From Pseudomonadota bacterium (GTDB taxonomy: Bacteria > Pseudomonadota > Gammaproteobacteria > Burkholderiales > Thiobacillaceae), in assembly GCA_021811235.1 (NCBI GenBank), contig JAJZPG010000012.1:1-64000 (forward strand): DNA of 64,000 nucleotides. Direction: 5' to 3'. How positions within the stretch are numbered: the first letter of the stretch is position 1; the number at the start of each line of letters is the position of its first letter. A model generated the notes under the pieces. It did not search any database. It was not told where the DNA came from and was given only the letters and a program-made list of their open reading frames with translations. Position numbers and translations under genes: made by a program. Shown here in pieces: positions 36,054-56,863 of this stretch.

Positions 36054-39000
36054 TTATTTCTTCGCCGTGCGCCGCAGGCGATTGAGCAGCCTGCGCGCCA
36101 GTTCGCCGAACAGTTCGGTCTGCGTCGGGTGCGGAAAGATCGCCTTGGCAACCTGGGTCAGCGTCATCTCGCCGGCCACCATCATCACGCCGATGCCGAT
36201 CAGGGTGTCGGTGTGGTCGGCGAGGTAGTGCACGCCGATGATGCGGCCGGTGGCCTTGTCGGCGACCAGCTTGATCATGCCCTCGGTCTCGCCGGTGATC
36301 ATCGCCTTGGCGTCGATGCTCATCGGCATCTTGGCTTCCACCGCGTCGATGCCCTTGGCCTTGGCCTGCGCGACCGACAGGCCGACGAAACCGGCCTGCG
36401 GGCGTGAGAAGGTCACGCCGCAGTCCTTGTCCTGGTCGTACTCGCTCGCATGGCCGAGCAGGTTGCCGGCGGCGACGCGGCCCTGGGTGGCGGCGGTGTG
36501 GGCAAGCATGTAGCCGCCGATGACGTCGCCGACCGCGTAGATGTGCGGGGCGCTGGTCTGGCAGCGGGCGTCGACCTTGATCGCCGCACCGTCGAGTTCG
36601 ACGCCGATCTTGTCGAGGTTGAGGCGGCTGGTGTCGGGACGCTTGCCGGTCGCCATCAGGACGACGTCGCAGTCGAAGGTCGATTCGACGCCTTCCTTGT
36701 TCGCGTAGCGCAGCTTCATCGCGCCGGGCGTGCCGCTCGCTTCCTTGATGTCGGCGCCGGTGACGACGGTGATTTCCTTCTCGAGCGAGGCGATCAGGCT
36801 TTTGGCGATCTCGTCCTCGATTTCGGCGAGGATGCGCTCGTTGCGCTCCAGCATCAGCACCTCGGTGCCGAAGTCGCGGAAGATCTGCGCCATCTCGACG
36901 CCGATGACGCCGCCGCCGACGATGCCGAGCTTCTTCGGCGGGCTGGCGAGGTTCCAGATGGTGTCGGAGGTGACCACGCCACCGGTCGCCAGGTTCTCGC
37001 GCGCGCCGGGGATCGGCGGCACGAAGGCGGGGGCGCCGGTGGCGATGACCGCGGCGCCGAAGCTGACGGTGTACGGCTCGCCCTCGACCGGGGTGATCTT
37101 CAGCGTGTGGGCGTCGACGAATTCGCCGTAGCCTTCGCGCACGTCGATCTTCATGCCCTTGTCGGCCTTGAGCGCCATGTCGCCGCGGCTGGTCTGCACC
37201 CAGCGGCGATGCTTCTCGACCTGTTCCCAGTTGAGCTTGGGCGTGTTGGTGCCGTCGACGCCCATCTCGGCGTCGTGCGCGCGGTTGCGGATGACGTCGG
37301 CCGCGGCGCGCCAGGCCTTGGACGGGATGCAGCCGCGCCACAGGCATTCTCCGCCGGGGAAGGGTTCGTTGTTGACCATCATGACCTTGACGCCATGGTC
37401 GGCCAGGTCGCGCGCGCAGTCCTCGCCGCCGGGGCCGCCGCCGACCACGACCACTTGAACATCCCAGTTGCCTTCGGGGATAGGCGAGACGGCCGGTGCC
37501 GCATGGCTGGCCGATGCGGCGGCAGCCGCAGCGACGCTCCCTGACCCCTGACCCCCGACCCCTGATCCCTCGCCTGCAATCCAGCCTTCCGGCGCCTCGA
37601 TGGTCTGTTTCAGCGTGGCCAGATACAGCGCGACGTCGGCGCCGTTCAGCACGCGGTGGTCGCCGGTGATGGTGAAGGGCGTGCCCTGCGGGCCGTTGGC
37701 GGCGATCGCCAGGATCGCGGCGATGCCGGGGGTGGGGATCGCGGTGAAGTGCGATACCCCCAGCATGCCCATGTTGGAAATGGTAAAGGTGGGATTGGAA
37801 TACTCGGCCGGCGCGAGTTTGCGCACCCGTGCACGCTCGACGAGGCCGGTCCAGTCGCTCTGCAGCGCTTCCAGCGGCTTCTTCTCGATGCCGTGCAGGA
37901 TCGGCACCACCAGGCCGCCGTCGTTCGACATCACGGCGACGCCGAAGTCGTGGTTGGCGCGCTCGACCAGCTTGTCGACCGGCTGGTAGGCCCAGTTCAT
38001 GCGCGGGAATTTCGCCATCGCCACCGAACAGGCCTTGGCGATCGCCACCGTCACCGAGACCTTCTTCGCCTTGGCGGCGGCGGTCAGCGCGGCGGTGTCG
38101 ATGTTCACCGTGACGTTGAAGGTCGGCAGCGTGAGCGAGGCGGTCATCGCGTGGCTCACGGCCTTTTCCATCGAGGTCATCGCACGGCCCTGGCCGGGCA
38201 CGTCGACCTGCGGCAGCGAATGCGCGACCTCCTGCATCGAGGGGCGCGCGCGCGCGACGTCGGCGGCGACGATCACGCCAGCGGGGCCGCTGCCGGCGAG
38301 GCCGGCGATGTTCACGCCGAGCTGCGCCGCGACCTTGCGGGCATAGGGCGAAGCCGGACGGCCCGGCACGCGTGCGACCGGCGGCTGGTTGCCGCTGGCA
38401 GCGACCTGCGCGGGCGCAGCCTTGGGCATGGGGATGTGCGCCGGCTTGTCGGCCGCATGCGGGGCGACCTTGTGGATGTTCTTGACCTTGTGGTCGGCGG
38501 AGAGGGTGACGCCGGTATCGTTCGCTTTCGATGCATCGTCGACGATGAAGGCCATCGGGTGGCCGACCTCGACCACGCTGCCGACGTCGGCGATGGGGCC
38601 GGAGAGGAAGCCCTCCTGGAACACCTCGACGTCCATGATGGCCTTGTCGGTCTCGACCGTGGCGACGATGTCACCGCGGCGGATGCTGTCGCCCGGCTGC
38701 TTCTCCCAGGTGACGACCACGCCTTCGGTCATGGTGTCGGAGAGCTGCGGCATCACGATCGGCGTGCCGGCATGGTGCGGGATCATCTCGGTCTGGGCTT
38801 TTTCTTCCACCACCTCGTCGGCGGCGATCGCGACGTCGCCCGGGGTGTCGGAGATGTAGCCGAGCGCAGCGCCTACCGCGATGGTCGCGCCGACGTCAGC
38901 CAGCGGGCCGGCCAGATAACCGGCTTTGAACACCTCGACGTCCATGATGGCCTTGTCGGTTTCGACCGTGGCGACGATGTCGCCGCGCTCGACCTTGTCG

Positions 39001-39083
39001 CCCGGCTGTTTTTCCCAGGTGACGACCACGCCCTCGGTCATGGTGTCCGAGAGCTGGGGCATGGTGATGGCGTAGTGGTTCAT
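36054..39083 (-). CDS. Fused dihydrolipoamide acetyltransferase (E2) - dihydrolipoamide dehydrogenase (E3)
   Basis: A 1009-residue protein combining two components of the pyruvate dehydrogenase complex. Domains: lipoyl 1 (about 3-78, Lys44 in ETDKA), lipoyl 2 (about 107-182, Lys147), E3/E1-binding domain (about 243-277, SPYARKVAAQLGVN), E2 core (about 295-500), Gly/Ala-rich linker (503-537), then E3 (540-1009) with FAD site VVVVGGGPGG, redox cysteines 580 and 585 (GGECLWRGCIPSKA), NAD site GIVGGGVIGVEMA, and HPT in FPHPTQTELF. The usual E2 motif HRxxDG reads DHRVLNG (Asn480 in place of Asp). The gene has no Shine-Dalgarno sequence: the heptad array directly precedes its ATG. Confidence 0.9.
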   Translation of the reverse strand: MNHYAITMPQLSDTMTEGVVVTWEKQPGDKVERGDIVATVETDKAIMDVEVFKAGYLAGPLADVGATIAVGAALGYISDTPGDVAIAADEVVEEKAQTEMIPHHAGTPIVMPQLSDTMTEGVVVTWEKQPGDSIRRGDIVATVETDKAIMDVEVFQEGFLSGPIADVGSVVEVGHPMAFIVDDASKANDTGVTLSADHKVKNIHKVAPHAADKPAHIPMPKAAPAQVAASGNQPPVARVPGRPASPYARKVAAQLGVNIAGLAGSGPAGVIVAADVARARPSMQEVAHSLPQVDVPGQGRAMTSMEKAVSHAMTASLTLPTFNVTVNIDTAALTAAAKAKKVSVTVAIAKACSVAMAKFPRMNWAYQPVDKLVERANHDFGVAVMSNDGGLVVPILHGIEKKPLEALQSDWTGLVERARVRKLAPAEYSNPTFTISNMGMLGVSHFTAIPTPGIAAILAIAANGPQGTPFTITGDHRVLNGADVALYLATLKQTIEAPEGWIAGEGSGVGGQGSGSVAAAAAASASHAAPAVSPIPEGNWDVQVVVVGGGPGGEDCARDLADHGVKVMMVNNEPFPGGECLWRGCIPSKAWRAAADVIRNRAHDAEMGVDGTNTPKLNWEQVEKHRRWVQTSRGDMALKADKGMKIDVREGYGEFVDAHTLKITPVEGEPYTVSFGAAVIATGAPAFVPPIPGARENLATGGVVTSDTIWNLASPPKKLGIVGGGVIGVEMAQIFRDFGTEVLMLERNERILAEIEDEIAKSLIASLEKEITVVTGADIKEASGTPGAMKLRYANKEGVESTFDCDVVLMATGKRPDTSRLNLDKIGVELDGAAIKVDARCQTSAPHIYAVGDVIGGYMLAHTAATQGRVAAGNLLGHASEYDQDKDCGVTFSRPQAGFVGLSVAQAKAKGIDAVEAKMPMSIDAKAMITGETEGMIKLVADKATGRIIGVHYLADHTDTLIGIGVMMVAGEMTLTQVAKAIFPHPTQTELFGELARRLLNRLRRTAKK
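37536..37570 (-). repeat. Heptad array inside the E2-E3 linker
   Basis: Five successive 7-bp units on the minus strand: AGGGATC, AGGGGTC, GGGGGTC, AGGGGTC, AGGGAGC. They encode the GEGSGVGGQGSGS part of the linker exactly at the E2/E3 junction. The 7-bp period and G-rich core match the arrays at 39091, 39510, 42394 and 56727. Confidence 0.85.
38630..39074 (-). repeat. Duplicated lipoyl-domain coding segment
   Basis: About 135 bp around 38630-38765 recur at 38939-39074 with high nucleotide identity, offset by 309 bp (103 codons). Both copies encode MPQLSDTMTEGVVVTWEKQ to ETDKAIMDVEVF, showing a recent internal duplication of the lipoyl domain. Confidence 0.85.
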
Positions 39084-39090
39084 AGGTGCT

Positions 39091-39146
39091 TAGGGGCTAG
39101 GATTTAGGGGCTAGGATTTAGGGGCTAGGATTTAGGGGCTAGGGGG
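39091..39146 (+). repeat. Left heptad array of the cassette
   Basis: Three perfect tandem copies of the 14-mer TAGGGGCTAGGATT (39091, 39105, 39119) and a fourth ending in TAGGGGG. Each 14-mer is two heptads. A degenerate TAGGTGCT precedes it, touching the E2-E3 start codon. The last bases of the four-helix-bundle gene, including its TAA stop, lie within units 3 and 4. Confidence 0.95.
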
Positions 39147-39509
39147 CAGCTTACTTTGTAGCGACTTGCGCAAACCCTGCAACATGCGTCCCAACTCGTC
39201 AGTGGTGGTAAACAAGGCATCGCGCTGCTCGATGCCCAGATAATTCAAGCGTGCAGTGAGTTCAATCTGGGTTTCGACCTCTGCCAGTGAGCCCATCGCT
39301 ATCGACACGAAACGCAAATAATCGCGCGTTGTATTGCGCGCGTGACCCTCTGCAATATTTGACGGAATGGATACCGCCGCGCGTTGCAACTGATTGGCAA
39401 GGGCGTAGAGCTCGATTTGGGGGAAGTTGCGGGTGACGGTGTAAACCGATTCGGTCAACTGCATCGCCAACTGCCAAACCGACAAGTCGCGATAGCTGAA
39501 AACCTCCAC
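39132..39509 (-). CDS. Four-helix-bundle protein (23S rRNA intervening sequence / Avd-like family)
   Basis: A 125-residue protein matching the S23/IVP four-helix-bundle family: YRDLSVWQLAMQLTESVY, NFPQIELYALANQLQRAAVSIPSNIAEGHARN, then YLRFVSIAMGSLAEVETQIELTARLNYL and a final basic helix GRMLQGLRKSLQSK. Family members are found within 23S rRNA intervening sequences, in diversity-generating retroelements (Avd), and as stand-alone genes; they bind nucleic acid in the Avd case. The start is GTG at 39509, with AGGGG seven bases upstream supplied by the right array. The last residues (LPPSP) and stop codon are encoded by the left array. It interrupts the pdhB to E2-E3 spacing. Confidence 0.85.
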   Translation of the reverse strand: MEVFSYRDLSVWQLAMQLTESVYTVTRNFPQIELYALANQLQRAAVSIPSNIAEGHARNTTRDYLRFVSIAMGSLAEVETQIELTARLNYLGIEQRDALFTTTDELGRMLQGLRKSLQSKLPPSP

Positions 39510-39543
39510 CCCCTAGCCCCTAAATCCTAGCCCCTAGCCCCTG
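39510..39543 (-). repeat. Right heptad array of the cassette
   Basis: Read on the minus strand: CAGGGGC, TAGGGGC, TAGGATT, TAGGGGC, TAGGGG. It ends flush with the GTG start of the four-helix-bundle gene and starts 3 bp after the pdhB stop. It is the inverted counterpart of the array at 39091-39146. Confidence 0.95.
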
Positions 39544-39546
39544 CCG

Positions 39547-40530
39547 TTAAGCCTTGCCGAACATTTTCAACACGGCCTTCACCACGTCCTCGTGATCCGG
39601 GATCGTCGCCTTTTCCAGCGTGTGGTTGTAAGGCTGCGGCACCAGTGCCGAATGCACGCGCACCGGCGCGGCATCCAGTTCGAAGAAGCATTCCTCGTTG
39701 ATGATGGCGATCACCTCGGAGCCGACGCCGACCGGGGCTTCGTCTTCCTCGGCGATGACGGCGCGGTGGGTCTTGCTGACCGAGGCCTTGATGCCTGCGC
39801 GGTCGAGCGGGGCGAGCGAGTAGAGGTCGACGACCTCGGCCGAGATGCCGTACTGCTTGTCGAGGATCTCAGCGGCCTTCAGGCACCAGTGCACCGAGAT
39901 GTTGTAGCCGAACAGCGTGACGTCGGTGCCGGCGCGCGCGATTTCCGAGCCTTCCAGCGGGTGGAAGTATTCGCCGTCCGGGACTTCGCCCTTCATGTTG
40001 TACATCAGCTCGTGTTCGTTGATGAACACAGGGTCGTCGCAGCGGATCGCCGACTTCAGCAGACCGTAGGCCTGCTTGGGATTCGACGGCGTGACCACGC
40101 GCAGGCCCGCGATGCCCATGAACACCTTTTCCATGCGCGCCGAGTGCTGCGCGCCGAGCTGGTGCGCAGCGCCACCGGCGGAGCGGAACACGCACGGCGC
40201 GGTCAGCTGGCCGCCCGACATGTAGCGCACCTTGGCGGCGGAGTTGAACATCTGGTCCATCGCCAGCCAGGCGAAGTTGACCGACATGATCTCGACGATC
40301 GGACGCACGCCGAGGAAGGAGGCGCCGACCGCCAGGCCGGTGAAGCCGCCTTCGGAAATCGGGGTGTCCATCACGCGCAGCGGGCCGTATTTTTCGTACA
40401 GGCCCTTGGTCGCCTTGTAGGTGCCGCCGGCGACGCCGATGTCTTCGCCCATGCAGATGACCAGCGGGTCACGTGCCATTTCTTCGTCGTGGGCGCGCTG
40501 GATCGCTTCCCAGTACATGATGTTTGCCAT
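39547..40530 (-). CDS. pdhB: Pyruvate dehydrogenase E1 component beta subunit
   Basis: A 327-residue transketolase-type subunit. It starts MANIMYWEAIQRAHDEEMARDP and contains MGEDIGVAGGTYKATKGLYEKYG, DTPISEGGFTGLAVGA, GAQHSARMEKVFMGIAGLRVVTPSNP and the C-terminal AVIAEEDEAPVGVGSEV. With PdhA it decarboxylates pyruvate using thiamine diphosphate and acetylates the E2 lipoyl arms. It lies 19 bp after pdhA; the four-helix cassette separates it from E2-E3. Confidence 0.93.
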   Translation of the reverse strand: MANIMYWEAIQRAHDEEMARDPLVICMGEDIGVAGGTYKATKGLYEKYGPLRVMDTPISEGGFTGLAVGASFLGVRPIVEIMSVNFAWLAMDQMFNSAAKVRYMSGGQLTAPCVFRSAGGAAHQLGAQHSARMEKVFMGIAGLRVVTPSNPKQAYGLLKSAIRCDDPVFINEHELMYNMKGEVPDGEYFHPLEGSEIARAGTDVTLFGYNISVHWCLKAAEILDKQYGISAEVVDLYSLAPLDRAGIKASVSKTHRAVIAEEDEAPVGVGSEVIAIINEECFFELDAAPVRVHSALVPQPYNHTLEKATIPDHEDVVKAVLKMFGKA

Positions 40531-40549: not shown

Positions 40550-41551
40550 TTAAGCGGCTTTGCCCGTGAGCCACGGGAGCTGGGTGTCGCGGTCGGCGAG
40601 AACGTATTTCTCGAGATCCTCGACGCGGGGTTCGGGGGACTCTTCGGCGAACTTGATCACTTCGTTCTCGATGTAGGCGTCGGTTTCCTTCTCGATCGCC
40701 TCGAATTCGGCCATGGTGATGGCCTTCTCGGCGATCAGGCGGTCGCGCAGGATGAAGATCGGGTCACGCTGCTTCCACAGTTCCTCCTCCTCGCGCGAAC
40801 GATAGCCGCGCGAGTCGGACATCGAGTGGCCGCGGTAGCGGTAGGTCATCAGTTCGAGGAAGAAGGGGCCGTTGCCCGCACGCACGTGGTCGACCGCCTT
40901 GCGCGCGTGCTCGTAGACGATTTCGATGTCCTGGCCGTCGCATTCGTCGGCCGGAATGTTGTAGGCGGCGACGCGCTTGTGCTGGTGCACCACGGCGGTC
41001 GAACGCTCGATCGAGGTGCCGATGCCGTACAGGTTGTTTTCGCACACGAACAGCACCGGCAGTTTCCACAGCGCGGCCATGTTCAGGGTTTCGTGGAAGG
41101 TGCCCTGGTTGTTGGCGGCATCACCGAGAAAGCAGATGGCGATCTCGTCGCCGCCCTTCAGCTGGATCGCCTTGGCGATGCCGGCCGCCAGCGGGAAGGG
41201 GCCGCCGACCAGTGCGTAACCGCCCATGAAGCGCTTGCCGGCATCGAAGATGTGCATCGAGCCGCCGCGTCCCTTGCTTGATCCGGTTTCCTTGCCGTAC
41301 AGCTCGGCCATCACTTCCTTGGGCTCGGCGCCGCACTTGATCGCGTGGACGTGGTCGCGGTAGCCGGTGATCACGTAGTCGTGGCCGGGGCGCGCGGCTT
41401 CCATCACGCCGTTGCAGCAGGCTTCCTGCCCGGGATAGAGGTGGAGAAAACCGCCGATCTTGCGTTCGATGTAGGCCTGATAGCAGCGCTCTTCAAAACG
41501 GCGGTGCAACACCATTTCGCGCAGCACACGTTTCTTGTCTTCAATCTTCAT
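40550..41551 (-). CDS. pdhA: Pyruvate dehydrogenase E1 component alpha subunit
   Basis: A 333-residue thiamine-diphosphate subunit. Features are HRRFEERCYQAYIERKIGGFLHLYPGQEA, ITGYRDHVHAI, GRGGSMHIFD, the ThDP motif at 143-150 (GDAANNQG, where GDGAANQG is usual) closing with ENN at 171-173, and the phosphorylation-loop region YRYRGHSMSDS. First gene of the minus-strand E1alpha-E1beta-[cassette]-E2/E3 operon, divergent from the M17 aminopeptidase. The heterodimeric E1 differs from the homodimeric AceE usual in betaproteobacteria. Confidence 0.93.
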   Translation of the reverse strand: MKIEDKKRVLREMVLHRRFEERCYQAYIERKIGGFLHLYPGQEACCNGVMEAARPGHDYVITGYRDHVHAIKCGAEPKEVMAELYGKETGSSKGRGGSMHIFDAGKRFMGGYALVGGPFPLAAGIAKAIQLKGGDEIAICFLGDAANNQGTFHETLNMAALWKLPVLFVCENNLYGIGTSIERSTAVVHQHKRVAAYNIPADECDGQDIEIVYEHARKAVDHVRAGNGPFFLELMTYRYRGHSMSDSRGYRSREEEELWKQRDPIFILRDRLIAEKAITMAEFEAIEKETDAYIENEVIKFAEESPEPRVEDLEKYVLADRDTQLPWLTGKAA

Positions 41552-41662
41552 TCGGTTACCCTTGTTGGATGGGGCGGAAAATGCGCTGGAAAAAAATCAA
41601 ACGCGCAATTATCCGGGAAACCCCGCCGCCCATCAAGAAAACGCCCCGCACAAGGAATCGAG

Positions 41663-43141
41663 ATGTTGCCCAAACTGACTGAAAACAAAGCTGAAATCAC
41701 TGCAAAATTCCTTGAAACCGCCGGCCACGCACTGCTGTTGCTGCCGCAGTCGAAAACCCTGCCTGAGATGCCGGGCAGTGCCGAACTGAAGGCGGTGATG
41801 AAACGGCGCGGCCTCAAGATCGACGCGCTGGCCAAGTCGCCGGTGGCGGTGCAGATGCCAGGCGGCACGCTCGCGGTCTACGTCATGTTGAAAGCGGGCG
41901 CTCCCACCTTCGATACCCATGAACAGGTGCGCAAGGCGCTGGCGCCGCTGATGGCCGAGCATCCGAAGTCGCTGACGCTGGCGGTGGTCGGCGACGCCGA
42001 ATTCAAGGCGCGCGCGGCCGAGGCGGCGGCGTATACCGCGCTGGTCAACGCGGTGTCCCTGCCCTCGCGCAAGTCGAAGCCCGATCCGGCGCTGAAGAGC
42101 ATTCAGCTCTTCGGCCACAAATCCGCCGACGGCCTTGCGCGCGTGCAGGCGCTGGCCGAGGGCAACCTGCTGACCCGCAGCCTCACCGTGCAGGGGCCGG
42201 ACGAGCTCACGCCGGGCGTGTACCGCAAGCGCATCAAGGCGCTCGCCAGGCAGTACGGCTGGAGCGTCGAGGAATACGCGTTCGACAAGCTGAAGAAAAT
42301 GGGGGCGGGCGCGTTCTGCGCGGTGGCGCAGGGTTCGCCGGCGAAGGACGCGGCGATCGTGCGCGTCAGCTACAAGGGACCGAAGAAGGGGGCAGGAGTC
42401 AGGGGCCAGGGGCCAGGGAAAACCGTGGCCTTCGTCGGCAAGGGCATCTGCTTCGACACCGGCGGCCACAACCTCAAGCCGGCCAAATACATGCAGGGCA
42501 TGCACGAGGACATGAACGGCTCGGCGGTGGTGCTCGGCATCCTCGCCGCCGCGTCGCGGATGAAGCTGCCGGTCGCGCTGGAAGGCTGGGTCGCGCTCGC
42601 CGAGAACCACATCAGCCCCGAGGCCTACCGGCAGAACGAGGTGGTGACGGCGTTGAACGGCACCACCATCGAAATCGTCCACACCGACGCCGAAGGCCGC
42701 ATGGTGCTGGCCGACACGCTCACCCTGGCCGCCAAGGGCAAACCCGACTTGATCGCCGACTTCGCGACGCTGACCGGCTCGATGCACTACGCGCTCGGCA
42801 GCCGCATGTCCGGCCTGTTCGCCAGTTCCAGCGCGCTCGCGCACCAGGCTTCGCGCGCCGCTACTTCAAGCGGGGAACGCATCGTCGTCTTCCCCTATCC
42901 GGAGGACTACGACGCGAGCCTCGACTCCACGGTTGCAGACGTGAAACAGTGCAGCATGGAGGGCGAGGCCGACCACATCCTCGCCACCCGTTTCCTGTCG
43001 CGCTTCGTCGGCGACACGCCCTGGCTGCACATGGACCTGTCGGGCCACAGCTGCAAGGGCGGGCTGGGTGCGGTGATGAGCGATGCCAACGGCTTCGGGG
43101 TGGCGTGGGGAATCGCGCTACTGGATGGCTTGAAGGCATAA
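41663..43141 (+). CDS. Leucyl aminopeptidase family (M17) peptidase
   Basis: A 492-residue cytosolic zinc/manganese aminopeptidase. Metal and catalytic residues are in VGKGICFDTGGHNLKPAKYMQGMHEDMNGSAVVLG and VHTDAEGRMVLADTL. The ATG at 41663 is preceded by AAGGA. At residues about 244-252 a short insertion (KKGAGVRGQGPGK) just before the catalytic domain is encoded by a heptad array. The second half differs from E. coli PepA (FDTGGHNLKP rather than FDSGG-isiKP), placing it in the PepB-like or plant-like branch. Confidence 0.9.
   Translation: MLPKLTENKAEITAKFLETAGHALLLLPQSKTLPEMPGSAELKAVMKRRGLKIDALAKSPVAVQMPGGTLAVYVMLKAGAPTFDTHEQVRKALAPLMAEHPKSLTLAVVGDAEFKARAAEAAAYTALVNAVSLPSRKSKPDPALKSIQLFGHKSADGLARVQALAEGNLLTRSLTVQGPDELTPGVYRKRIKALARQYGWSVEEYAFDKLKKMGAGAFCAVAQGSPAKDAAIVRVSYKGPKKGAGVRGQGPGKTVAFVGKGICFDTGGHNLKPAKYMQGMHEDMNGSAVVLGILAAASRMKLPVALEGWVALAENHISPEAYRQNEVVTALNGTTIEIVHTDAEGRMVLADTLTLAAKGKPDLIADFATLTGSMHYALGSRMSGLFASSSALAHQASRAATSSGERIVVFPYPEDYDASLDSTVADVKQCSMEGEADHILATRFLSRFVGDTPWLHMDLSGHSCKGGLGAVMSDANGFGVAWGIALLDGLKA
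42394..42418 (+). repeat. Heptad array inside the M17 peptidase gene
   Basis: AGGAGTC, AGGGGCC, AGGGGCC, AGGG in tandem. It keeps the reading frame and encodes the GVRGQGPG loop between the N-terminal and catalytic domains. It has the same 7-bp period as the other arrays. Confidence 0.8.
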
Positions 43142-55671: not shown

Positions 55672-56729
55672 AGATTGCAGTCTTGCCGGGTGACGGCATC
55701 GGTCCGGAAATCGTCGCCCAGGCGGTGAAGGTGCTGGAAGTCCTGCGTGCCGACGGCGCGAAAATCGAAATGGAGAGCGCGCCCATCGGCGGTGCGGGCT
55801 ATGACGCGGCGGGCGATCCGCTGCCGGACGCGACGCTGAAGCTCGCACGCGCGGCCGACGCGGTGCTGCTCGGCGCCGTCGGCGGCCCGCAGTACGACAC
55901 GCTCGACCGCCCGCTGCGCCCCGAGCGCGGCCTGTTGCGCATCCGCAAGGAGCTCAACTTGTTCGCCAACCTGCGGCCGGCGCTGCTGTATCCCGAACTG
56001 GCGGGCGCTTCGTCGCTCAAGCCCGAAGTGGTGTCCGGACTCGACCTCATGATCGTGCGCGAGTTGACCGGCGACGTCTATTTTGGACAGCCGCGCGGCA
56101 TCGAAGTGCGGAATGGCGAACGCGTCGGCTTCAACACCATGCTGTATTCCGAATCCGAAGTGCGCCGCGTCGCCCACGTCGCCTTCGGCATCGCGATGAA
56201 GCGCGGCAGGAAACTGTGCTCGGTCGAAAAAGCCAACGTGCTCGAATGCTCCGAGCTGTGGAAGGAGGTGATGATCGAGGTGGCCAAGGACTACCCCGAG
56301 GTCGCGCTCTCGCACATGTACGTCGACAACGCGGCGATGCAGCTGATCCGTGCGCCCAAGCAGTTCGACACCATCGTCACCGGCAACATCTTCGGCGACA
56401 TCCTGTCGGACGCTGCGTCGATGTTGTCGGGCTCGATCGGCATGCTGCCGTCGGCCTCGCTGGACGAGCACAACAAGGGCATGTACGAGCCGATCCACGG
56501 TTCGGCGCCCGACATCGCCGGCAGGAACCTGGCGAACCCGCTGGCGACCATCCTGTCGGTGGCGATGATGTACCGCTACACCTTCGCCGACCTGGCGACC
56601 GCCGACCGCATCGAGAATGCGGTGAAGAAGGTGATCGCACAGGGTCTGCGCACCGGCGACATCTGGACCGAGGGCACGCAGAAAGTGTCGTGCAGCGAGA
56701 TGGGCGACGCGGTCGTCGCTGCGCTCTAG
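55668..56729 (+). CDS. leuB: 3-isopropylmalate dehydrogenase
   Basis: A 353-residue NAD-dependent enzyme: [70 protein letters not shown]-type segment, and [18 protein letters not shown]. Its TAG stop is the first three bases of a heptad array (TAGGATT), so the cassette-like element abuts the coding sequence. Confidence 0.96.
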
Positions 56730-56846
56730 GATTTAGGAACTAGGGACGAGGAGTTAGGGCAGGAGCGGGCTGTGCCCGCGCAATTTTGGGCAGCGCGGCC
56801 GAAGGCCGCTCATTCCCTAGCCCCTAAATCCTGGCCCCTAGCCCCC
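56727..56846. mobile_element. Inverted heptad arrays with hairpin core (gene-less cassette)
   Basis: Left array on the plus strand (56727-56760: TAGGATT, TAGGAAC, TAGGGAC, GAGGAGT, TAGGGC) and right array on the minus strand (56846-56814: GGGGGGC, TAGGGGC, CAGGATT, TAGGGGC, TAGGGA) flank a 53-bp core with two hairpins, GCGGGC-TGT-GCCCGC (56764-56778) and GCGGCC-GAA-GGCCGC (56795-56809). Same inverted arrangement as the 39-kb cassette but without a protein gene, placed between leuB and asd. The core recalls REP-like elements. Confidence 0.65.
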
Positions 56847-56863
56847 CACACAGGAGAGAGAAA

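Follow-up and report, generated by a model that had tools for sequence, protein, structure and literature searches.

S23/IVP four-helix-bundle genes usually lie between convergent arrays of heptameric repeats, and the sequence of the heptad tracks the type of S23 protein. We regard both the convergent-arm architecture and the cognate link between protein and heptad as almost certainly real; the association is strong, spans phyla and is poorly fitted by ordinary explanations. Gene and arms likely constitute a selfish, REPIN/RAYT-like protein-repeat cassette, in which each S23 protein would be the partner of one heptad sequence. One such cassette is present in the window, the whole 64,000-nucleotide stretch of DNA that was analysed.

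The S23 gene and its arms between pdhB and the E2-E3 gene

The S23 gene of the window (39132..39509, minus strand) encodes a protein of 125 aa from a GTG start, which profile searches place in the S23 family (PF05635, 127.7 bits versus a cut-off of 33.8; TIGR02436, 125.7 bits versus 24) and below the cut-offs of the Avd models (bAvd, 30.2 versus 40 bits; Avd, 31.6 versus 80 bits). PF05635 and bAvd are the only Pfam families matched by the cassette gene at E 0.001, with no Y1 transposase among the matches, and the closest solved structure is 2gsc (E=6.6e-26). A purine-rich array of AGGGGCT/AGGATTT heptads forms the 5' arm (39510..39542, minus strand), which is flush with the start codon and pairs with the 3' arm (39090..39145, plus strand), where the same heptads are inverted and code for the C-terminal LPPSP and the TAA stop. 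On the plus strand the array at 39090-39145 is G-rich and that at 39510-39542 is C-rich, and therefore both converge on the S23 gene. The 5' array ends on the coding strand in AGGGGCTAGGGG followed directly by GTG, and an AGGGG ends 7 nt upstream of the start. The upstream neighbour is pdhB (E1 beta; 39547..40530, minus strand), the C-terminal part of which is present in 51 of the 56 genus genomes and the stop codon of which (39547) borders the cassette; on the other side the border is the ATG (39083) of the E2-E3 (lipoyl/dihydrolipoamide) gene (36054..39083, minus strand), named by eye and from an earlier note on this DNA. That note had described an S23/IVP/Avd-like ORF of 125 codons between inward-pointing TAGGGGC/TAGGATT arrays, the right one flush with GTG and offering AGGGG at ribosome-site distance, the left one coding for the last residues and the stop, and the whole block fitting between the pdhB stop and the E2-E3 start; the profile scores and coordinates above agree with it on each point.

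Both heptads are over-represented in the window. TAGGATT occurs five times (1.04 expected), a count reached by none of 100 shuffles, and TAGGGGC nine times (3.68 expected), a count reached by one of 100. The two arms can form a perfect pairing of 28 nt, and the element, whose transcript the earlier note had proposed to fold, pairs its arms when folded as RNA (z -6.1 versus shuffles). We assigned S23 types A, B and C from protein and arms. Type-A genes at the pdh site have a median dN/dS of 0.076 (four pairs), and values range from 0.06 to 0.14 across four groups of 2-36 S23 pairs; these low ratios therefore indicate that the protein is kept functional.

Convergent heptad arms at S23 genes across bacteria

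Loci with PF05635 came from three sources: 56 genomes of the genus, of which 32 had a match, 370 genomes of the class, of which 77 had one, and the best 80 of 592 relatives among 84,980 species. The 111 rows of the class set were reduced to 89 loci by removing two from the window's genome, leaving out 18 others (eight of ten similar copies from a single genome, one locus at a contig end, two weak second matches and seven other weak or partial matches) and merging two fragment pairs, while the genus-and-order set grew from 50 rows to 53 loci after one weak row was dropped, two fragments were merged and five loci of other families were added. Period arrays were found in 118 of 177 near flanks of the class set (110 of these having a period of 7 or 14) versus 17 of 172 flanks 300 bp away, and the two flanks of a locus were complementary (score of at least 14) in 56 of 88 cases, versus 4 of 264 cross-locus pairs and none of 83 far pairs. 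The genus-and-order set, whose 53 loci are not independent, gave period arrays in 83 of 105 near and 6 of 102 far flanks, and complementarity in 44 of 52 own pairs, compared with 27 of 156 across loci and none of 49 far pairs. Among the best 80 of 592 relatives, which include an archaeon and many phyla, the corresponding figures were 116 of 157 near versus 16 of 151 far flanks, and 53 of 77 own versus 6 of 231 cross-locus and 0 of 71 far pairs; 91 of these 116 near-flank arrays were at period 7 or 14, with period 8 in 15 and period 9 in five. At six loci (L259, L305, L315, L323, L280 and L287) the arrays that flank the S23 gene have a period of 8 (or 16) or of 9, not 7. A chance origin of the arrays is ruled out by the shuffle counts in the window and these near-versus-far comparisons. 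The earlier note had also proposed a search for the same gene family between such arrays at unrelated loci, and the sets contain just this, convergent heptads with neighbours that are mostly unrelated.

Paired arms are present at 109 of the 142 loci; there, self-identity is 0.76 at lag 7 versus 0.25-0.30 at lags 3-6 and 8-13, and the 5' arm is purine-rich (67% A+G over the 98 loci used for profiles). S23 arms have a median length of 4.6-4.7 heptads in the three sets, with modes of 4 or 5. When units were counted as AGG triplets in phase in five genus genomes, where many arms are orthologous and so not independent, 90 of 180 arms had exactly 5 units, 34 had 4, 22 had 6 and 21 had 7-23; lengths other than 5 units are common among arms.

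Some loci are without arms, and these are often weak PF05635 members. A 1.5 Mb single-contig genome (G363) has 10 weak PF05635 matches, of which the two that were read (L206 and L208) have no heptad arms; its matches may represent a different element. No S23 match was found at E 1e-5 among 50,697 phage records. Of 72,556 plasmid records 33 match, at least 22 of them cyanobacterial, and heptad arms are present at all five plasmid loci read, each cyanobacterial. On plasmid pANA02 of Anabaena sp. 90 (L444) the S23 cassette lies in a type I-D CRISPR locus, with cas6 on one side and cas4/cas1 on the other.

Relationship between protein type and heptad sequence

The heptads vary by locus and include AGGGGCT, AGGGGTC, AGGCGTG, AGTGGTG, AAGTTGC, AGTTCTG, AATAGGG, AATTGAT and others. 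Across 98 of the 142 loci (3918 between-genus pairs), protein identity correlates with heptad similarity with a rho of 0.357, the largest of 999 permutations being 0.150, and with a rho of 0.230 when composition is controlled (largest of 999 permutations, 0.154). The excess of heptad similarity climbs from about zero below 25% protein identity to 0.27 above 70% (10 pairs). Shared descent of gene and arms could lie behind part of this correlation; the genome-wide array counts described below do not rest on such descent alone. We disfavour the G-quadruplex as a unifying feature because many cognate heptads have no G-runs (AGTTCTG, AAGATTC, AATTGAT).

Gene-less hairpins and genome-wide arrays

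Heptad arrays are not confined to the S23 gene. In the window's genome (2.85 Mb, two PF05635 genes) three consecutive TAGGRNN units give 55+65 overlapping matches, versus 6+0 for a reversed-pattern control, at no fewer than 24 places. Both arms are present at 18 of the 23 places read without the gene, always with the G-rich array first, and the matched arrays are separated by 22-77 bp, often GC palindromes; the cores are not derived from the S23 gene. One of these gene-less hairpins lies in the window (56727..56858, plus strand); it combines the heptads of the S23 arms with a GC-rich palindromic core and has counterparts with matching flanks in three other genomes. Its RNA fold has a z of -2.4, and four such hairpins folded as RNA range from -2.4 to -7.7. 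The places with heptad arrays that were read in genus genomes are likewise mostly gene-less hairpins. The window also contains two arrays inside reading frames, a TCAGGGG-type array in the E2-E3 coding sequence (37539..37570, minus strand), whose family is foreign to this type-A genome, and an AGGGGCC array (42387..42418, plus strand) in ORF 41345-43141, aminopeptidase-like by eye.

Array abundance follows the resident S23 type. The 56 genus genomes were compared by overlapping matches with S23 arms included, and with p-values that ignore relatedness. Family A (TAGGRNN) reaches a median of 115 in the five genomes with a type-A S23 and of 1 in the remaining 51 (p 1e-4); for family B (TCAGGRN) the medians are 55 (15 genomes with type B) and 5 (41 without; p 7e-7), and for family C (GTGAGGN) 10 (11 genomes with type C) and 0 (45 without; p 4e-5). 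The arms of the S23 genes themselves account for 8 of 120 family-A matches in the window's genome and for a larger share of family C. Summed over the three families, the median is 65 in 32 genomes with any S23 versus 7.5 in 24 without. Sister pairs on the pdh tree differ in the same manner, with family-A counts of 120 versus 4 (G000/G024), 79 versus 0 (G061/G029) and, at a weaker fork, 50 versus 4 (G064/G062), and family-B counts of 107 versus 0 (G003/G069). There are exceptions: three genomes have many arrays and no detected S23 (G010, A 44 and B 22; G075, A 40; G027, B 42), and three with only a type-B S23 at pdh have many A arrays (G014, 95; G004, 54; G028, 50). In a cross-genus comparison of 20 genomes, AGTTCTK arrays occur in all three with that heptad at S23 arms, where their presence at the S23 gene follows from the choice of pattern, and in none of the 17 others; they are dispersed in two of the three cognate genomes (77 and 33 matches), and in G198 all four matches lie at its S23 gene.

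Different heptads at shared hairpin sites

In a comparison of two type-A with three type-B genomes we found 97 hairpin pairs with matched flanks (92 distinct, in 24 site groups), the flanks being mostly 80-95% identical. Forty of the 55 A-B pairs carry opposite families, 11 have family A on both sides and four include a mixed locus, fractions that are biased because the loci were picked by repeat pattern. In the two A genomes T precedes AGG in 158 of 176 and in 117 of 121 cases, and the three B genomes have C at this position in 99 of 100, in 149 of 217 and in 146 of 188. Many gene-less hairpins occupy sites common to species and may therefore be old.

A fairer, flank-anchored test addressed 10 own-genome sites in four other genomes, with 23 of 40 site-genome combinations readable and a usable array in 13 of the 17 anchored rows from G024, G016 and G029. 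Ten of these 13 arrays, a small number, resemble the heptad of a resident S23 (similarity of at least 0.76). The resident S23 set is the strict best match in only five of 13, in part because G016 and G024 share a heptad family, and the own-S23 labelling is the best of six permutations (0.786 versus 0.657-0.755). G024, whose only S23 has GTGAGCG arms, carries GTGAGCG/GTGAGTG arrays at four of seven readable sites, and one TAGG-like array unlike its resident heptad. In G029, which has three S23 types, the five sites include one GTGAGGC and one CAAGATT array, both cognate, and two TCAGG arrays, for which no TCAGG-armed S23 was found in that genome. No clear array was seen at five of six sites in G062 (no S23 detected) versus four of 17 in the three S23 genomes. 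In a cruder version that included the window's genome, with strand not fixed and the sites of that genome chosen by pattern, the own labelling was best of 24 and the own genome best in 14 of 23 cases. The direction of these anchored-site results is as predicted. Judged by eye, the order of units across the TCAGG/CTAGG difference is partly kept at some sites and not at others, and wholesale array replacement may not be the only mode of change.

Distribution of the cassette at yebC-ruvC, pdh and other junctions

The S23 cassette probably moves, as suggested by its distribution at two junctions, yebC-ruvC and pdh. We read 30 loci at each, out of 50 genomes that had a match at yebC-ruvC and 51 at pdh. 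Eight of the yebC-ruvC loci, each from a different genome, hold the cassette, with 427-457 bp from the yebC stop to the ILGIDPG motif of ruvC; 15 are clean empty sites, where this distance is 7-15 bp, and seven hold other genes. Small genes that are toxin-antitoxin-like by eye are present at this junction in L227, L229, L237, L238, L244, L250 and L252. Where the cassette is present the stop codon of yebC comes from it and ruvC has lost its usual start; a new start likely overlaps the S23 stop, and the right array would therefore be translated into RuvC. Inspection of yebC-ruvC by eye gave no sign of a target-site duplication.

At the pdh site S23 is present in eight of 30 loci, and most of the others hold, by eye, gene-less hairpins with other repeats. 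S23 type is patchy on the tree of the adjacent genes, with at least three forced changes for A, at least three for B and at least five for 'none' (41 of 42 rows, one being too short; 20 of 38 forks are open and the bootstrap is not settled), and recombination at the site is possible. The earlier note had suggested a search for an empty site between pdhB and E2-E3 in close relatives; S23 presence there is patchy, and most S23-less loci hold a gene-less hairpin. In six of them (L063, L065, L067, L080, L088 and L089) the pdhB/E2 hairpin has CGCGAAGGA-like repeats of about 9-10 bp, as judged by eye, which form a separate repeat family. Two copies at pdh are altered: the S23 gene of L047 (G003) is without its end and right arm and runs in frame into E2-E3 (606 residues read), and that of L220 (G035) consists of two partial PF05635 matches in different frames and is likely decaying.

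Elsewhere the surroundings of S23 genes are diverse. A homologous neighbour is common to 199 of 15,051 locus pairs (174 loci, from different genera or records), 82 of the 174 loci have a neighbour in common with one or more others, and neighbours are co-directional with the S23 gene in 131 of 166 cases on the left and 117 of 161 on the right. A single ancestral operon member is ruled out for the family, the neighbours being mostly unrelated, and an ancestral operon member at pdh is unlikely, as well-supported branches of the tree force the changes given above. The earlier note had interpreted the arrays as the ends of a mobile unit, and had named as its opposite a gene kept at the same site in all relatives. 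We found clean empty sites at yebC-ruvC and patchy presence at pdh in place of the latter, and these, with the unrelated loci, argue that the arrays would indeed be such ends.

Comparison with known systems

The nearest described relatives are the intervening sequences (IVSs) of 23S rRNA, which share with the cassette the protein family, an ORF of similar size and complementary ends and have been called selfish, as far as the available part of the source goes (PMC4990558). In Coxiella the IVS has tandem heptamers before the S23p ORF, three plus a degenerate one in some strains; their number varies by strain, and no general heptad rule is drawn in the accessible portion of that paper (PMC4990558). 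Ends that form a stem around an ORF are found in the window as well (the 28-nt pairing, z -6.1). However, IVSs lie in 23S rRNA helices, whereas the window cassette lies between pdhB and E2-E3, has arms of 5 and 8 units and occurs in a genome with similar arrays at no fewer than 24 places. REPIN/RAYT systems likewise comprise a gene flanked by repeats and inverted doublets dispersed in intergenic space, with repeat classes tied to particular RAYTs, according to the portion of PMC3116915 available; S23 heptads are tied in the same way to their proteins, with exceptions. Unlike RAYT, a Y1 (HUH) transposase, the partner in the window is a four-helix-bundle S23 protein, and the S23 system falls outside REPIN/RAYT because this partner is not a Y1 transposase; S23 repeats are moreover tandem 7-mer arrays, and common sites can differ in family between species. 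With respect to transposons and MITEs, the cassette has no transposase and, by eye, no target-site duplication at yebC-ruvC. The Avd protein of diversity-generating retroelements (DGRs) is related, but the bAvd and Avd matches are weak and below cut-off, PF05635 fits the window S23 far better, and the immediate neighbours of the window S23 gene are pdhB and E2-E3.

Heptameric G-rich repeats in intergenic arrays have been reported from Xanthomonas and Nostoc, with 70 and 75 convergent pairs of GGGAATC heptads in two Xanthomonas species, 90% of them between the same genes (PMC4692102, in the part available), and TAACTGA heptad repeats from Beggiatoaceae (PMC4679880, likewise in part). In our loci, GGGAATC/GGGATTC-type arrays flank S23 genes of Xanthomonas, Luteimonas and Rhodanobacter (L254, L257, L262, L264). 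Terms for 23S or four-helix proteins have no occurrence in the texts of PMC4692102 or PMC4679880, and a general link between S23 and heptads was not found stated in the open PMC papers searched, the nearest being the single case in the available text of PMC4990558. The S23-heptad system would link the orphan Xanthomonas heptamer repeats (PMC4692102) with the 23S IVSs (PMC4990558).

A model for S23 and its heptads, and its alternatives

The S23 protein probably recognises its heptads, as suggested indirectly by the tracking of heptad by protein type and by the cognate arrays genome-wide, and it may well, though with little beyond an even chance, drive the spread or rewriting of the gene-less hairpins. 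To our knowledge S23 has no catalytic activity. Each entry of the nearest solved relatives, 2gsc and 2rld, contains five chains and many arms have 5 units, and we therefore propose, tentatively, a ring that reads about one heptad per subunit. The TRAP protein, which reads GAG repeats, offers a comparison for such reading by a ring. A Xanthomonas S23 protein is a toroidal homopentamer (PMC4990558, in the part available). The ring would bind the purine-rich strand of an arm in single-stranded form, either as RNA or as DNA. By means of host enzymes, binding would let the cassette and its gene-less dependants insert at intergenic junctions or overwrite other hairpins there; arrays would decay once the S23 gene was lost. 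Weighing against this model are the arrays that have no matching S23, the palindromic hairpin cores, the common and perhaps old hairpin sites, the 11 A-B pairs with family A on both sides, the lack of any catalytic activity known for S23 and of any duplication noticed at yebC-ruvC, the arms of other than 5 units and the 82 loci with neighbours in common. It is conceivable, if still somewhat doubtful as a whole, that S23 proteins are a widespread class of repeat-reading rings, whose pentamers read about five of their own heptads and so drive the genome-wide spread and rewriting of cognate hairpins at fixed intergenic sites, with the excess of 7-mer repeats in bacterial genomes and the 23S IVSs both being products of this process.

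That movement of the hairpins is due to a RAYT/Y1 transposase or to a reverse transcriptase, with S23 as an accessory like Avd to the DGR reverse transcriptase, strikes us as rather unlikely. The gene-less cores do hold REP-like GC palindromes, and S23 resembles Avd in its weak model matches (PMC10053308, in the part available), yet S23 is the sole gene in the cassette and the heptad tracks S23 type across genera. We consider it unlikely that the hairpins are mRNA elements of host operons, bound by S23 as a domesticated and not a selfish regulator, with a role in autoregulation, RNase III processing or the tuning of neighbours and with heptads that change with the protein by ordinary co-evolution. 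Such regulation would agree with the RNA stems formed by the arms of the S23 element and the four hairpins, with the predominance of co-directional neighbours, with the low dN/dS of S23 and with the many hairpins at conserved sites, whereas the patchy presence at pdh, the clean empty sites and the mostly unrelated neighbours suit a mobile unit better, and the available portion of PMC4692102 finds no gene-regulation role identifiable for the Xanthomonas repeats. It is very improbable that S23 is a passive passenger, inserted without recognition into tolerant loops of hairpins whose arrays are products of polymerase slippage (a hypothesis quoted in the accessible text of PMC4692102, and in keeping with the 21 of 180 arms that have 7-23 units). 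This leaves unexplained the tracking of heptad by protein type, the genome-wide cognate enrichment and the arrival of gene and arms together at yebC-ruvC, a junction too short for any hairpin in 15 of 30 genomes.

A selfish cassette of S23 gene and cognate heptads would bring together two orphans, the heptamer repeats noted in several bacteria without a cause and the S23/IVP ('four helix bundle protein') family without a function. If the recognition of heptads by S23 is true, the family would be a new one of sequence-specific nucleic-acid-binding proteins, with a code that the many protein-repeat pairs found in nature would make readable. Such recognition would also point to how the intervening sequences of 23S rRNA arose, and would place a second selfish system of protein plus repeat beside REPIN/RAYT.
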